64,000 bases of DNA from Sphingobacterium yanglingense (GTDB lineage Bacteria > Bacteroidota > Bacteroidia > Sphingobacteriales > Sphingobacteriaceae): NCBI RefSeq assembly GCF_004363245.1, contig NZ_SNYV01000001.1, positions 62,001-126,000 on the forward strand, read 5' to 3'. The notes beneath the pieces were generated by a model that was not told where the DNA came from, did no database searches, and saw only the letters and a list, made by a program, of their open reading frames with translations. Of this stretch, positions 1 through 9,653 are shown in pieces; position 1 is the first letter of the stretch; the number at the start of each line of letters is the position of its first letter. The position numbers and the translations under genes are program-made.

Positions 1-967
1 ACTAAACCAACGACTGACTGGTAACTACACTTATTATTACCGTTGGGAACATAATCAACGACGTGAAACTACAATTTCTGGATCGACGGGTTTTACTGCT
101 CGCCTAATCAATACAGCAGAAGAGTATATGACACGCGGACACGAGATTTCATTGGGAGGTATTCCTGTTAAGAAGGAAAAGTTCCAATGGGAGGTAAGTG
201 GTAATTTATCACAGAATTTAAGATATTACCATAAATTGGATCCAGACTATTCCGCCGACGCTTTGTATGTTAAGGTTGGAGAAAGAGCGGATCATTATGT
301 CACTAGAGATTGGGAGCGAACTCCGGATGGGCAGATCATACATAACGCTTCTGGTATGCCGATCAGTGCTACGCATGAATCCCGTCTGTTCGGTTACACT
401 GCTCCGAAATGGTTCTGGGGGCTTACCAATCAATTTCAATATAAAGATTTTGCACTGTCCCTTAGTTTCGATGGTCGTGTAAAGGGGCTGTCTTATTCCA
501 GTATGAATGCTCGATTATGGCAGACAGGAGCACATCCAGACTCTGACGTACCGGAGCGGTACGAAGAGGTAGTTAATGGCAATAAGACTTTTATAGGAGA
601 GGGGGTCAAGATCGTATCTGGATCGGTAGCTTATGATAAATATGGTCAGATTACTAATGATGATCGTGTTTTCGCACCTAACGACAAAGTAGTTTCTTAT
701 GAAAACTATTGGAAGAGAGCTTACTCTGGTACACAAAATATTTGGGATGAGACATTCGTCAAGTTAAGGGAGGTCTCCGTCAACTACTTTGTCCCGGCTA
801 CAATCGCAAATAAGTTTAAGGCAAAGAAGGCAAGTATTGGTGTTACGGGGCAAAATTTATTTTTATGGACGAAAGAGTATCGTTTCTCCGACCCAGATAC
901 AGGATCTGAGGATCTAAACTCTCCATCCATGCGTTATGTTGGATTTAATGTCAATTTGACTTTCTAA
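1..967 (+). CDS. SusC/RagA-type TonB-dependent outer-membrane receptor (C-terminal part only)
   Basis: The reading frame is open from base 2, so this is the 3' end of a gene that begins upstream of the window; the first internal Met at 128 is not the start. About 321 residues are visible. They resemble the last beta-strands of a SusC-type barrel: alternating aromatic and polar strands, the DETFVKLREVSVNY segment, and a C-terminal GFNVNLTF strand ending in Phe, as expected for BamA-assembled barrels. SusC proteins import ligands captured by a SusD lipoprotein, using TonB energy. The SusD-like gene follows after 15 nt, which fixes the assignment. The promoter and N-terminal plug domain lie outside the window, so substrate class and regulation cannot be read. 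The phospholipase gene downstream hints at phospholipid or phosphate-ester uptake, which is inference. Confidence 0.9.
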   Translation, partial: LNQRLTGNYTYYYRWEHNQRRETTISGSTGFTARLINTAEEYMTRGHEISLGGIPVKKEKFQWEVSGNLSQNLRYYHKLDPDYSADALYVKVGERADHYVTRDWERTPDGQIIHNASGMPISATHESRLFGYTAPKWFWGLTNQFQYKDFALSLSFDGRVKGLSYSSMNARLWQTGAHPDSDVPERYEEVVNGNKTFIGEGVKIVSGSVAYDKYGQITNDDRVFAPNDKVVSYENYWKRAYSGTQNIWDETFVKLREVSVNYFVPATIANKFKAKKASIGVTGQNLFLWTKEYRFSDPDTGSEDLNSPSMRYVGFNVNLTF

Positions 968-5316: not shown

Positions 5317-6411
5317 TTATTCAATAATAACTTGGATTCCAGCCAAATTTGCTTTATACTTTATTTTCTCGATAAGTCCATAGTATGACCAGTTACGCAA
5401 TAAGAATTCGTCTTCTTTGGCGACTTCTTCTTTTAGGCTTTGGTTGACGAGTAGTAATGTGCCAGCTTGGGCTTTGATACAGACATCAATCAGTCTTCTA
5501 CTGTAGAGGTGTAGTTTGTTGTCAACGTAGTTTTTCTCTTTTTGATTATAATGCTCGAGACTTTTTAGCTTTTTCTTGCGACCATGCCCACCTCTTGAGA
5601 ATGCCGCCGCTCGTTGGATACGGTGACGAGCCGATTGTATAGCGATACGACGGTACAGAAATTCTTCTTTATTACCGATTTGAAAGTTATCTTTCTCTAT
5701 CTGTACGGTTATGGGATGCTCAACAGCTAATGATGCCTCGGCAATGACATGATCTTTGAGTTCCTGTTGTTTCTTGGGCATCTCTAATGCCAGTAGCAGG
5801 AAGATTTTGCCTTTTACTATTTTTAATGCACTGGCGCATATTTTTATTTGTCCTACTAGTGCTCTTTGGAGGAGCACCCTTTTGTCTGAGCGATCTTTGC
5901 CGAGGTAAGTTCGGAAGGGGATTTTGAATAACGTGAATTTGAAATCACGATTGTTTTCATCCTTACTGAGTTTGATCTGAGTTCCTGAGAAAGGAATAGG
6001 CATATCCTTCTTATAGTTGCGTAGGGACTTGGTGCCTTTCCAATAGTCTAACCTTTCGGTGTTGAAGGTTTTTATCAATGTCATGTTGATGCAGGATAGG
6101 ATGTCGGAATGGATTTTTCCTTTAAAATAACGGGATAATATTTTATAGGTTGTATTCATCCGCGACGTATTTAGAATGCCTTCCTCATCCTTGTTGCGGT
6201 CGGCTAATTTGACTTTAACATCATCCTGTAGATAGATAAGGTCTTTCATCTGCTCTTGGATATATTGATGCGACATAACCATATTGGCTCCCCGAAATAC
6301 AACATCTTGCCATTCGAATAGGGTTTTATAATATTCAGATCGTTTTTCCTTATCGTCAGAGTCGATATGAAGCTGTATTTTTCTAGTGAGTACGATAGTA
6401 TCTTTTTCCAT
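5317..6411 (-). CDS. Nuclease-dead Cas12f/TnpB-like RNA-guided protein
   Basis: This 364-residue protein shows the C-terminal architecture of TnpB/Cas12f: a basic bridge (HRIQRAAAFSRGGHGRKKKL, about 263-282), then YNQKEKNYVDNKLHLYSRRL (about 288-306), a RuvC-II-like strand, and LLRNWSYYGLIEKIKYKANL-AGIQV (338-361), which matches the TnpB segment just before the zinc finger. The catalytic pattern is missing. The strand expected to carry the RuvC-I Asp (GIDLG in active enzymes) is not recognisable around 225-246. The RuvC-II Glu position reads LLLVNQSL, with Asn323. The protein ends before the CxxC zinc finger and RuvC-III Asp. It should therefore bind guide RNA and DNA without cutting. The gene starts 3 nt after the sigma-factor gene, so the two are co-transcribed. 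A CRISPR-like array lies upstream. Family placement rests on motif recognition; a structure comparison would settle Cas12f versus TnpB origin. Confidence 0.82.
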   Translation of the reverse strand: MEKDTIVLTRKIQLHIDSDDKEKRSEYYKTLFEWQDVVFRGANMVMSHQYIQEQMKDLIYLQDDVKVKLADRNKDEEGILNTSRMNTTYKILSRYFKGKIHSDILSCINMTLIKTFNTERLDYWKGTKSLRNYKKDMPIPFSGTQIKLSKDENNRDFKFTLFKIPFRTYLGKDRSDKRVLLQRALVGQIKICASALKIVKGKIFLLLALEMPKKQQELKDHVIAEASLAVEHPITVQIEKDNFQIGNKEEFLYRRIAIQSARHRIQRAAAFSRGGHGRKKKLKSLEHYNQKEKNYVDNKLHLYSRRLIDVCIKAQAGTLLLVNQSLKEEVAKEDEFLLRNWSYYGLIEKIKYKANLAGIQVIIE

Positions 6412-6414
6412 GAT

Positions 6415-7215
6415 TTATGCTGTCTTTTTAGTGGGTTTAACTTTAGTTCGTGCTTCGATAAATATTTTTTTGACGGCGGAAGAACTTAGTTGAAGTGACT
6501 CGGAAATTTCATCAAATGACATCTGGAGCTCATAGCGCATACGCAACACTTCGGCTTGTTCTTCCGAAAATTCTCCTTCCAGTTTCAATGCGATAGGAAT
6601 GTTTAGCATATTGAGCTTGTCTTGGCTTTGAAATATCTGACGTAGGGTTTCAATTGTTTTTTCGACTTGTATGCTGACTTCATAATCAGATATGCCTCCT
6701 AAATAGTAAGCGATTCGCTCATAGTTGAAGCTGTATTGTAAGCATAGCTTGATAAAGTTCTGTTGCTGTTCAGATAGATAGGGAAGGAGGTTGTTCAGTT
6801 TCTGAAGTTTTGCTTTTTTATCCTCCTCAAGTTGCTCTAGGTATACTGCATTTATTTCGTCCTCGGCTTCCATGTCATAGCCAAGCATAAATTCTTGATA
6901 GTCTTCAATACCATCTAACCGAAGTAAACTCCGTTGAAATCTATTTCTGGATTTAGTAAAGTAGACACCTATAGCAGCTCGGATTTGCTTTTTTAGAAAG
7001 TTGAATAGTGATTCGCTGTCTTCAATCTGTTCGCGGAAGAGCCACAACCGAAAGAAAGCTTCCTGTACGATACTTTCTGCTGTACAGCGATCATCGGTAG
7101 CACGTTCAGCCCGATAGCAGAAGGTGTCGAAGTACTTTTTGTAGAAGTAGTCTAGGCCTTTCTCTTTTCCTTCTTTTAGGAAAGAGAGGTGTAGCTGTGT
7201 GTTGTTTAGTTTCAT
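6415..7215 (-). CDS. ECF-type RNA polymerase sigma factor with two region-4-like domains
   Basis: Of its 266 residues, about 21-86 form sigma region 2 (YFYKKYFDTFCYRAERAT, then AESIVQEAFFRLW, the usual core-polymerase-binding helix). Two consecutive HTH segments follow. The first, about 144-194, reads LPYLSEQQQNFIKLCLQ with ERIAYYLGG and ends ETLRQIF. The second, about 213-260, reads GEFSEEQAEVLRMRYELQMS with FDEISESLQLSSSAVKKIF. Ordinary ECF sigma factors have about 180-200 residues and one region 4, so the extra domain is notable. The gene is first in a two-gene operon with the dead Cas12f-like gene, and no FecR-type anti-sigma gene is adjacent. I infer that the sigma factor is brought to DNA by the guide-RNA protein. 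The second C-terminal domain may be the protein-protein interface. Confidence 0.88.
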   Translation of the reverse strand: MKLNNTQLHLSFLKEGKEKGLDYFYKKYFDTFCYRAERATDDRCTAESIVQEAFFRLWLFREQIEDSESLFNFLKKQIRAAIGVYFTKSRNRFQRSLLRLDGIEDYQEFMLGYDMEAEDEINAVYLEQLEEDKKAKLQKLNNLLPYLSEQQQNFIKLCLQYSFNYERIAYYLGGISDYEVSIQVEKTIETLRQIFQSQDKLNMLNIPIALKLEGEFSEEQAEVLRMRYELQMSFDEISESLQLSSSAVKKIFIEARTKVKPTKKTA

Positions 7216-7397
7216 GATTTGGTTTTTTGCTTGTTGTCAAATAACTGCGGATAACCTCAGCGTTTTGCTAGTTTTATCTTTTGTTGCCAAGGCTATCGCA
7301 GTTGTGTTTTATTTGCTAGACGTATTGGTATGGGAGATAAAAGTTTCTGACGTCTGTTGTAAGTACTTTATTAATCTGTAATTTCTTATTTCGTTAC

Positions 7398-7440
7398 GTC
7401 ATATCGACCTTGTGGAGATATCTAAGAACGTTCGAGGGTT
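7398..7440. repeat. Truncated copy of the palindromic element
   Basis: The stretch ACGTCATATCGACCTTGTGG followed by AGATATCTAAG and, after a short gap, AGGGTT matches the left arm of the element at 8287-8383. The right arm is absent, so this copy looks deleted between here and the repeat at 7473. Confidence 0.65.
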
Positions 7441-7513
7441 GACTTTTGTTCAAGCTTAGTCTTAGGCTGTGTGCTGTGAATACCCTATAAATTGCATTTG
7501 CCTACTTCCCTTT

Positions 7514-7630
7514 GTCATACCGAGCGCAGTCGAGTGCCTGTTCCGAGTATCGGAATATCTATGGACTGTCTAGGGTTAAATGTTATTTCGCTAGATCTCT
7601 CTATTCCGCTGCGCTGCAATCGAGATGACG
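7514..7630. repeat. Palindromic element next to a half CRISPR-like repeat
   Basis: The left end reads GTCATACCGAGCGCAGTCGA and the right end TCGAGATGACG, in inverted relation. It contains the shared internal piece TAGGGTTAAATGTTATTTCG. It begins directly after a 5' half-repeat at 7473-7494, as do the copies at 8287 and 8484. Confidence 0.8.
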
Positions 7631-7809
7631 GGGACAGGACAAATAAATTGTCATTAAGATAATTAAAGCAAAAGGGTTACAGTAGAAGCCGTTTTTAATA
7701 CCCTACAAATTGTGACCATCTACAGGTTTTCTAATTAACCAAAAGAGCTTGCAAGGTTGTTTACACCACAAATGAAAAAATCGCCCTACGCTGTTAGAAA
7801 TTAAATTAT

Positions 7810-7870
7810 AAGGGTACTTAGTGAGTGGCGACATGCCCTCACCCTACGGCTGAACAAGCAGCCTCATGTA
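7810..7870 (+). ncRNA. tracrRNA-like RNA, copy 1
   Basis: The block starts AAGGGTACTTAGTGAGTGGC and ends CTACGGCTGAACAAGCAGCC. It can form a hairpin of GTGAG..GG against CC..CTCAC with loop CGACATG, then GGCTG/CAGCC with a 6-nt loop. The same block occurs at 8782-8838 with every stem base kept and only the first loop changed (CAGTATA). The 5' AGGGTA can pair with TACCCT in the array repeats, as an anti-repeat would. A non-coding guide scaffold is the simplest reading. Exact ends are unknown; the GIY-YIG start follows 30 nt later. Confidence 0.7.
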
Positions 7871-7899
7871 TGTTGGTTAATTTTTAGTATTTTAATCCA

Positions 7900-8199
7900 A
7901 TGGAAAGAGGAGGTGTTATCTATATGCTAACTAATATAAACCGAACTGTACTCTATATTGGAGTGACTTCTGATTTATACTCAAGGTTGGTTGAGCATCG
8001 TGAGAAGCATTATCTCAATTCGTTTACAAGTAAGTATAATTCCTGTCTCTGTGTTTATTATGAATCCTTTCCTGCTATTGAAGAAGCCATCGACAGAGAA
8101 AAACAGCTCAAGAAATGGAGTCGCGCAAAGAAAGAGATGCTTATAAACAAGCTTAATCCACAATGGAACGACCTCTGGGAGGTTGTTAAAGAGTGGTAA
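7900..8199 (+). CDS. Small GIY-YIG nuclease domain protein
   Basis: This 99-residue protein is one GIY-YIG domain: GGVIYMLTN (4-12), LYIGVTSDLYSRLVEHR (18-34) with the conserved Arg, and EEAIDREKQLKKWSRAKKEM with the metal-binding Glu of EREKQLKKW. It ends LNPQWNDL, typical of the short Bacteroidota members of the UvrC/YhbQ-like group. Such proteins are predicted DNA nucleases of unknown role. The gene lies between the two CRISPR-like clusters and among palindromic elements of one family. This suggests that it may act on those elements or may have arrived with them. That link is inference from position only. The start ATG at 7900 is the only one that keeps the whole domain. Confidence 0.88.
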   Translation: MERGGVIYMLTNINRTVLYIGVTSDLYSRLVEHREKHYLNSFTSKYNSCLCVYYESFPAIEEAIDREKQLKKWSRAKKEMLINKLNPQWNDLWEVVKEW

Positions 8200-8286
8200 T
8201 TAAGGTGTCTGTTTATTAAATGCTTAGTTTTTGGAAACGAGACTCGGTTGTGTATACCCCACAAATTGTAATTGCTTATTTCATTA

Positions 8287-8383
8287 CGTCATATCGACCT
8301 TGTGGAGATGTCTATTAACTGTATAGGGTTAACTATTATGTCTTAGACCCATTCGACTCCGTTTCACTCCGCTCAGGGTGACG
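8287..8383. repeat. Palindromic element inside a CRISPR-like repeat (copy 1)
   Basis: Left end CGTCATATCGACCTTGTGG; right end, read on the minus strand, CGTCACCCTGAGCGGAGTG. It separates the 5' half (8247-8269) from the 3' half (8392-8414) of one repeat. The words ACAAATTGT and ACAAACTGT on the two sides could be a target duplication. Confidence 0.8.
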
Positions 8384-8483
8384 ATATAGTATACAAACTG
8401 TGATCATCTACAGGAAACAGAGCTATTATTTTATTGTACAACGAGTTGTCAATACCCTACAAATAGCATTTGCTTACTTCATT

Positions 8484-8588
8484 CGTCATACCGACCTTGT
8501 TGAGGTATCTATAGACTTTTTAGGGTTAACTATGTCGTTGGATCTCTCCGCTACGGTCCCCTATGATTCGGGACGTAGCGAGATGACG
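8484..8588. repeat. Palindromic element inside a CRISPR-like repeat (copy 2)
   Basis: Left end CGTCATACCGACCTTGTTG and right end GCGAGATGACG are inverted matches at the tips. An inner hairpin pairs GCTACG with CGTAGC and TCCC with GGGA. It splits the repeat at 8445-8618 at the same point as the copy at 8287. Confidence 0.8.
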
Positions 8589-8781
8589 GCAAGAAGATAA
8601 AATGTGATCATCTACAGGATTAGCGGGCAATACAACATAAAACTTAACGTTGTGAATACCCTACAAACTGAGATTATCTACAGGAAGGAATCTATATCAC
8701 CTTGATTCATTTCCTTGGTTGTGAATACCCTCCAAGCCGTGATCGTCTATAGGGTACCCCTGTCCGCAATCATTAATAATT

Positions 8782-8848
8782 AAGGGTACTTAGTGAGTGG
8801 CAGTATACCCTCACTCTACGGCTGAACAAGCAGCCTCAAATATTTTTT
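8782..8848 (+). ncRNA. tracrRNA-like RNA, copy 2, with terminator
   Basis: This is the second copy of the block at 7810. It has AAGGGTACTTAGTGAGTGGC, a GTGAG/CTCAC hairpin, then GGCTGAACAAGCAGCC, and ends in TATTTTTT, which gives the last hairpin the form of an intrinsic terminator on the + strand. It starts 28 nt after the terminal repeat of the right array. AGGGTA at its 5' end complements TACCCT in the repeats. The unchanged stems against a changed loop support selection for RNA structure. Confidence 0.75.
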
Positions 8849-9179
8849 ACCCATACCAATATATCAAAGAGCAATACTGTTCCTGTTTCATGCTTAAAAA
8901 GCATAAATGACCTGAACTAAAAATAATGGAGGATTTTTAAGCAATAATTGGTTTTTGTATAAAATTGGGCGCTAATACAGTTGCTTTATTATTACCTCTT
9001 TCTATAATTTTCCTGTTTTATTAAACAGGAGATTTAACGATGTTCTTATACAATGTGTTTTTCATGTTTATATAAGCTTTGGTTATCTCTAAACAAATGT
9101 AGGGTTTTTATTTTTAAAAACAAATTTTACAAAAACTATATTTTATTTTGTTTGCGCAAATATTAGTTCTATTTGTTTT
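8849..9179. other. AT-rich intergenic stretch before the XRE gene
   Basis: No ORF or RNA gene is recognisable. There is a hairpin-like pair TTTCCTGTTTTATTAAACAGGA near 9010 and a 10-bp palindrome TTTGCGCAAA at 9151-9160, 20 nt before the XRE start. The latter is a plausible operator for the downstream regulator. Confidence 0.4.
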
Positions 9180-9653
9180 GTGATAGCAGTAAACAAAGAT
9201 ATATTAAAGGTATTAGGTGAAAAGATACGTATTCGTCGTGAAGAACTTTCCTATTCTCAAAACGATGTTGCTGATTTAACCGGGCTTACAACTATTACCG
9301 TACTCGCCTTAGAAAAAGGTCGTGGTACTACCCTTAATAACTTCTTGCTCATTTGTCGCGCTTTACAAATCCAGCCGCGGGATCTTTTTGAGAGCGACAT
9401 CGAACTCACCCCACTTTTTGCTTTGCCTCCCGAATCTCAAAAACGCGTAGAGAAGAATCAGAAGCTAGATCATCTGGTATACGACTCCGATTTTTTTGAA
9501 ACCCCGAGACGTGTCTCTGATGTGATAAAAGAACTGAATGCAGATAAGGCCGATAGTAACAAATACTCTGTCTACCTGACAGGTTACTGCAAAGAAGGAG
9601 GGTTGGACTATATCAAAGAAGGGAATTATAAAAAGTATTTGAAGAAGAAGTAA
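9180..9653 (+). CDS. XRE-family transcriptional regulator
   Basis: This 157-residue protein has an N-terminal HTH (about 10-68: LGEKIRIRREELSYSQNDVA, DLTGLTTITVLALEKGRGT, NNFLLICRALQIQPRDLF) of the XRE/Cro type. A polar C-terminal region of unknown fold ends GLDYIKEGNYKKYLKKK. The chosen start is GTG at 9180; no in-frame ATG precedes the HTH. In many genomes such regulators precede HipA-type or other partner genes. Here only a truncated ATPase gene follows 237 nt later, so the partner may have been lost. The palindrome at 9151-9160 may be its operator. Targets are unknown. Confidence 0.85.
   Translation: MIAVNKDILKVLGEKIRIRREELSYSQNDVADLTGLTTITVLALEKGRGTTLNNFLLICRALQIQPRDLFESDIELTPLFALPPESQKRVEKNQKLDHLVYDSDFFETPRRVSDVIKELNADKADSNKYSVYLTGYCKEGGLDYIKEGNYKKYLKKK

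Follow-up and report, generated by a model that had tools for sequence, protein, structure and literature searches.

The 64,000-nucleotide stretch of the Sphingobacterium yanglingense genome analyzed here (the window, G000:C10:62001-126000; genome size 5,485,389 bases) contains a two-gene operon on the minus strand, which encodes an extracytoplasmic function (ECF)-type sigma factor of 266 amino acids (aa) at 6415-7215 and a predicted nuclease-dead Cas12f (dCas12f) of 364 aa at 5317-6411. The two open reading frames (ORFs) were both intact and separated by 3 nt, as the original prediction had described for a sigma gene and a Cas12f/TnpB-like gene. Repeat-spacer units and two copies of a trans-activating CRISPR RNA (tracrRNA)-like sequence occupied 7443-8846, right of the operon. 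Our analysis suggests that this CRISPR-like array supplies a set of guide RNAs with which RNA polymerase may be sent to chosen operons of the SusC/SusD type in the cell's own genome.

The identity of the two proteins is mainly attributed to homology with a solved dCas12f-sigma complex. The dcas12f product matched the chain named "Nuclease-deactivated Cas12f" in PDB 9n9c over residues 1-363 of 364 (412.7 bits, E-value 1.4e-122) and the Cas12f model of PADLOC (E 1.3e-59), and the NCBIfam model guided_TnpB matched it under the cut-off (E 1e-15). The sigma ORF matched Sigma70_r4 (E 6.3e-9), TIGR02937 (E 1.3e-19), and the RpoE chain 9n9q_C of the complex (129.7 bits, E 1.4e-36). Since the dCas12f match was full-length and the sigma factor matched the same complex, the window system belongs to the known dCas12f-sigma kind. 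In the profile alignment, S227 and V322 of the window protein occupied the positions where active Cas12f has its first RuvC aspartate and its RuvC-II glutamate, respectively, and the chain stopped ahead of the third RuvC segment (RuvC-III). With the loss of these residues, which we take to be the catalytic ones, the window Cas12f is predicted to be nuclease-dead. The claim that the locus holds no cas1, cas2, or nuclease-competent effector was thereby upheld for the RuvC residues; for cas1 and cas2 it was upheld within the 19 of the 56 window ORFs of at least 80 aa that were scanned with Pfam and/or PADLOC, none of which matched, a result that does not extend to the remaining 37 ORFs or to the genome outside the window. 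An AlphaFold2 model of dCas12f built on a 30-sequence alignment (predicted local distance difference test score 79.4, predicted template modeling (TM) score 0.56) had as its best PDB matches in Foldseek the dCas12f-guide RNA complexes 9n9m (E 4.5e-39) and 9n9c (E 7.1e-36), so that a structural match to Cas12f, set beforehand as a test, was obtained. The domain placement of the model differed from that of 9n9m and 9n9c (TM scores 0.61 and 0.59), as the root-mean-square deviation was over 8.

The array consists of 36-nt repeats and spacers of about 30 nt, which we call guides. In transcript order, the cluster reads tracr2, R1-G1, R2-G2, R3-G3, R4-G4, tracr1, and more degenerate units, followed by the sigma gene and dcas12f. 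Copy 2 of the tracr-like RNA (8772-8846), located 5' of the array, and copy 1 (7800-7874) are each 75 nt long and 84% identical. The repeats R1 (8718-8753) and R2 (8649-8684) are clean and are followed by guides G1 (8685-8717) and G2 (8619-8648), respectively. Inserts resembling repetitive extragenic palindromic (REP) sequences split R3 (8445-8618) and R4 (8247-8414), of which the 3' halves at 8445-8465 and 8247-8267 are intact and lead into G3 (8415-8444) and G4 (8217-8246). Among the degenerate units, the guide-like G5 (7727-7755) follows a degenerate repeat, R6 (7691-7726) has an altered 3' end and forms a unit with the guide-like G6 (7661-7690; unit 7661-7726), and the 3' half of the REP-split R7 forms a unit with the guide-like G7 (7443-7472; unit 7443-7493). 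The REP-like palindromes at 7510-7632, 8283-8385, and 8483-8590 interrupted R7, R4, and R3 at about one position, with the 3' half kept each time. The Rfam scan of the window gave no match.

Judged from its sequence, the array lies on the minus strand together with both tracr-like copies, the same strand as the sigma-dcas12f operon, because of the G.U pairs in the tracr stem, the pairing between tracr2 and the repeat, and a promoter-like match. The second tracr stem showed covariation across 63 distinct copies and contained many G.U pairs, which correspond to A.C on the opposite strand. On the minus strand, the predicted fold (-39.9 kcal/mol, z -2.47) placed AGUACCCUU of tracr2 opposite GAGGGUAUU in the 3' half of R1, and the plus-strand fold of the same stretch likewise beat its shuffles (z -1.83). 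The tracr1 stretch, folded with the sequence behind it, was no better than shuffles (z -0.49), and tracr1 was recognized by copy similarity and covariation. A strict scan of 6300-9300 for TTTG-N17-23-TANNTTTG, which we assume to be the promoter consensus, found a single match, on the minus strand at 9124-9094 (TTTG-N19-TANNTTTG), against an expectation of 0.04 per strand from simple shuffles; this promoter-like element (TTTG-N19-TACATTTG) reads into the guide cluster. A plus-strand array was rejected, since the minus-strand repeats end in CAAC at the spacer, the tracr stem needs G.U pairs, and the targets then face susC. The original prediction was therefore right in placing the array and the tracr-like genes beside the operon, and its strand was corrected to minus. 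An earlier set of 238 spacer rows and one spacer comparison were made in the old plus orientation, and some of those rows were array ends or REP pieces; the minus-strand recount, which covered the window and 18 loci, gave 248 guide-like rows.

The arrangement was found to recur in relatives, a check that had been proposed along with the original prediction. In 26 of 28 loci, the sigma gene immediately preceded dcas12f, the exceptions being a partial dcas12f with no sigma match (L023) and a locus with a 39-residue match (L029). The closest named relatives, with dcas12f 95-96% identical, were Sphingobacterium nematocida, S. paucimobilis, S. sp. xlx-96, and S. faecale. Of the 27 related loci examined, 18 had at least four repeats, counted with four consensus forms, and 25 had tracr copies, as did the window (1-6 each, 67 copies in all), so the predicted CRISPR-like array and duplicated tracr-like RNAs were borne out both in the window and beyond it. 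Array spacing in the relatives was mostly 65-66 nt, and the repeats of S. alkalisoli were identical at 36/36 positions in places. Five loci (L016, L017, L019, L020, and L022) combined two or three tracr copies with no more than one repeat among the four forms, and these are perhaps single-guide units. The spacers varied widely among species, and some were common to relatives. One spacer, shared by L005, L009, and L014, matched, with up to 3 mismatches allowed, an element that is found in other genomes and not in these three; at this threshold, the pattern was found in 11 of 93 genomes of the genus, three of them being the arrays themselves, and the reversed control pattern was found in 5 of 93. 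A reading of this element as a plus-strand RNA was dropped in favour of a leader on the minus strand, ahead of susC.

Own-genome targets were searched with native array stretches, comprising about 46 guides: four of the window (G1, G2, G3, and G5), 16 of S. pedocola (L026), 22 of S. detergens (L015), and four full guides of L006. All seven window guides were also compared with 90 susC-like regions (302,837 bases), and 40 of 46 candidates were scored in the S. pedocola search. Guide G3 matched a site on another contig of its own genome (G000:C6; L189 6233 to 6204, minus strand) at 27/30 positions, without a mismatch in the first 22 nt (E 5.2e-5 in the whole-genome search). In the search of susC-like regions, the match was a 23-nt run with one mismatch, compared with 16 for the best of 70 shuffled guides. 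The site is 173 nt upstream of the first ATG and faces an operon that encodes a CTPC-motif ORF without a Pfam match, SusC, and SusD. Four targets were found in S. pedocola (G013; 30/30, 27/30, 27/29, and 26/30; E 9.2e-8 to 0.084) and four in S. detergens (G011; three at 30/30 and one at 25/30; E 7.8e-8 to 0.038), and no own-genome target was found in S. alkalisoli with a 320-nt stretch holding four full spacers. Seven of the nine targets, namely that of G3 and six in the two relatives, are located upstream of susC operons and face them in guide orientation. A rough estimate, with the number of susC-like genes set at 110 per genome and the windows at 800 nt, puts the chance of seven of nine falling at susC at about 1e-13, the susC genes of S. 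pedocola and S. detergens being uncounted.

The six targets of this kind in the relatives differed in their position and in the base at -1. In S. pedocola, L026a and L026c are 769 nt and 493 nt from the ATG of a susC operon and L026b is 19 nt from a thioredoxin-like ORF that is followed by SusC, all three with G at -1, and L026d is 62 nt from the ATG of a susC operon with A at -1. In S. detergens, L015a and L015d are 401 nt and 95 nt from the ATG of susC operons, both with A at -1. The other two targets of S. detergens have T at -1: L015b faces a 424-aa ORF without a Pfam match at 177 nt, and L015c (L191:6213-6242, 30/30) is antisense inside an ORF of the toxin-like Gp49 type. An ORF resembling a helix-turn-helix (HTH) gene sits behind the latter. 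With G3 included, G was present at -1 in four of the five targets of G000 and G013.

Several matches were rejected as targets. Two 20-mer matches with 3 mismatches in G000:C4 lay within a coding region, and the matches in S. alkalisoli, as well as other matches with E above 0.1 in the window and L015 searches, were chance-like. Three L026 matches with lower values, C1:623268 (E 3.1e-4), C2:1260296 (E 0.001), and C1:521717 (E 0.013), lay outside the spacers and were palindromic or REP-like.

Other features were observed around the target sites. On the far side of several of them is a gene that looked HTH-like by eye; in Pfam, L189:7005-7556 was HTH_3 and L193:6103-6705 had no family. A structured element, conserved and about 200 nt long, with its strand running to susC, was present at L084:1333-1534 (G000:C1:802,466-802,667) and at L189:6660-6900 (G000:C6), with further copies in L074, L075, L077, L079, L080, L082, L088, and L101. 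In a 10-sequence alignment, 22 of its 47 predicted pairs showed changes on both sides, and Rfam gave no match at the element in L073. It may serve susC operons as a leader RNA, and spacers of two kinds from other species resembled parts of it. In G000, the defence-type genes SduA, SLATT_5, PRTase-CE, and NADAR (L073:10333-15158) lie across from a susC operon and the structured element.

The support at the level of sequence consists of the operon, the tracr and repeat-spacer units on one strand, the potential for tracr-repeat pairing, the loss of the RuvC residues, and the self-targets at susC. The position of own-genome targets ahead of susC operons agrees with the idea that the guide chooses the promoter, and this part of the original prediction thereby gained support from the sequence matches. 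We put at about 0.8 the probability that this is a dCas12f-sigma system whose CRISPR-like array is a guide-RNA set sending RNA polymerase to chosen susC/susD operons of the same cell. In such a system, the tracrRNA-CRISPR RNA (crRNA) pair would load dCas12f, the guide would locate its target ahead of a susC operon, and dCas12f would open the target and not cut it. The sigma factor held by dCas12f would recruit RNA polymerase, and transcription would begin downstream of the target, with the result that the transporter of that operon is made. The guides would then likely determine which transporters of the outer membrane the cell switches on, and guide turnover among species may rewire this choice. 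Activation of the target operons is inferred from homology and geometry.

A number of observations weigh against this interpretation. Only nine of the about 46 guides searched genome-wide had a target, and no target was found for six of the seven window guides: G1, G2, and G5 had none genome-wide or in the susC-like regions, and G4, G6, and G7 had none in the 90 susC-like regions, which were their sole search. L015d and L026d are weak (E 0.038 and 0.084), and mismatches occurred in the first six bases of L026b, L026c, L026d, and L015d. None of the four S. detergens targets has G at -1, and two of them, L015b before an ORF without a Pfam match and L015c antisense within the Gp49-type ORF, do not lie at susC. 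The target-to-ATG distance ranges from 19 to 769 nt, and L026b leaves 19 nt only. In the window itself, three repeats (R3, R4, and R7) are split and others are degenerate.

The split and degenerate repeats could also mean that the window copy is decaying, so that REP insertions have left few or no working guides in a system that once had many, and the single detectable target for seven guides agrees with this. We consider such decay unlikely, since both proteins are intact, dcas12f is highly similar to that of the four closest relatives, the clean repeats R1 and R2 persist, and the 3' repeat halves and the 22-nt seed of G3 are intact. It is less likely still that the system is an RNA-guided repressor, in which target-bound dCas12f would block transcription of the susC operon as a natural form of CRISPR interference and the sigma factor would have another role. 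The L026a target covers a TATCTTTG box that resembles what we take to be the Bacteroidota -7 element, several targets are far upstream of the ATG, and L015c sits antisense within an ORF, all of which would suit repression. However, the other targets showed no TATCTTTG-like box on visual inspection, and the sigma factor, whose gene is linked to dcas12f in nearly all loci, matches its counterpart in the solved 9n9q complex.

CRISPR immunity, or a relic of it, in which the spacers come from mobile DNA that dCas12f silences or marks and the self-matches are by-products, would explain the array form, the diverse spacers, the perfect target within a toxin-like ORF, and the L005/L009/L014 spacer that matches an element elsewhere. 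We regard it as very improbable in view of the lost nuclease residues, the lack of cas1/cas2 among the 19 of 56 ORFs scanned, and the location of seven of the nine own targets at susC operons. In addition, three arrays compared with 50,697 phage records gave chance-like matches only (best E 0.1 to 0.4), viral contigs and plasmids being unsearched. The guided_TnpB match and the REP-like palindromes might point to a remnant TnpB, left by an IS200/IS605 element next to a sigma gene that has nothing to do with it, with the repeats as mere REP palindromes. This reading was already disfavoured and has a negligible probability, given the full-length dCas12f match, the conserved sigma pairing, the regular 65-66-nt arrays in relatives, and the covarying tracr.

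The surroundings of the guide cluster contained some further features. An inverted motif, with arms at 7323-7346 and 8838-8861 flanking the cluster (TATTGGTAT... / ...ATACCAATA), was present in the window and many relatives, and its two arms showed paired changes, GGG/CCC in the clade of the window and TGA/TCA elsewhere; the arms could act as paired operators or form a long-range stem in RNA. An HTH_3 regulator at 9180-9653, at the far end of the cluster, had relatives in 17 of the 28 loci and is perhaps the regulator of the cluster. A GIY-YIG ORF lies within the cluster on the plus strand (7900-8199) and was present in four of the 28 related loci, the four nearest. The opposite flank of the operon in the window contains a 279-aa ORF without a Pfam match, a SusD gene, and a phospholipase C-type gene.

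More tentatively, and with somewhat less than even odds in our estimate, the genus as a whole may employ CRISPR-like arrays as a rewritable switchboard for transporters and not for immunity, in which the spacers address susC/susD operons, the self-targeting guides come and go without a visible Cas1-Cas2, and the dead Cas12f and the sigma factor activate. If this is true, a CRISPR array has been exapted into a multi-address transcription program, the guides constitute a predicted wiring of which susC/susD operons are on across the genus, and natural multi-guide RNA-guided transcription becomes testable. It also raises the question of how new self-targeting spacers enter the array with no adaptation module in view.

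Among known systems, the closest is the dCas12f-sigma (RpoE) complex of PDB 9n9c, 9n9m, 9n9o, and 9n9q, with which the window system shares a dead Cas12f of equal length, full-length homology, and a homologous linked sigma factor. Of the traits of this kind, a dead RuvC site, homology, a linked sigma, nearby guide-RNA genes, and self-matches upstream of genes were all found, and the 5'-G ahead of the target varied, occurring in four of the five targets of G000 and G013 and in none of the four of G011. Papers on the complex are said to be from Hoffmann, Sternberg and colleagues in 2025; the original prediction had referred to reports of sigma-paired dead Cas12f activators, and these were not found in our literature search. 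The same search found no array form with many self-targeting guides, and it also missed the core dCas12f-sigma papers. The kind of system is already known, and within the coverage of that search the new part is that the guides are in array form.

Type V-F CRISPR-Cas12f (Un1Cas12f1 7c7l, AsCas12f 7wju, and CnCas12f1 8hr5) shares with the window system the homologous effector, the tracr-crRNA pair, and the repeat-spacer array, and the repeat end CAAC and the tracr motif presumably resemble those of Un1Cas12f1. Unlike type V-F, the window system has lost the RuvC residues, so its protein is predicted to lack the nuclease competence of an immune effector, and it has a linked sigma, spacers matching its own promoters, and no cas1/cas2 in the scanned part. 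TldR proteins are nuclease-dead TnpB regulators that act as repressors with one guide. Like them, the window system appears to be a dead RNA-guided nuclease exapted for gene control, but it differs in its sigma partner and its many guides. The described dCas12f-sigma systems reportedly have targets upstream of susC/susD operons with a 5'-G ahead of the target, as does G3 in the window. They are also said to use single guide RNAs, whereas the kind found in the window has CRISPR-like arrays, several tracr copies, and many spacers.

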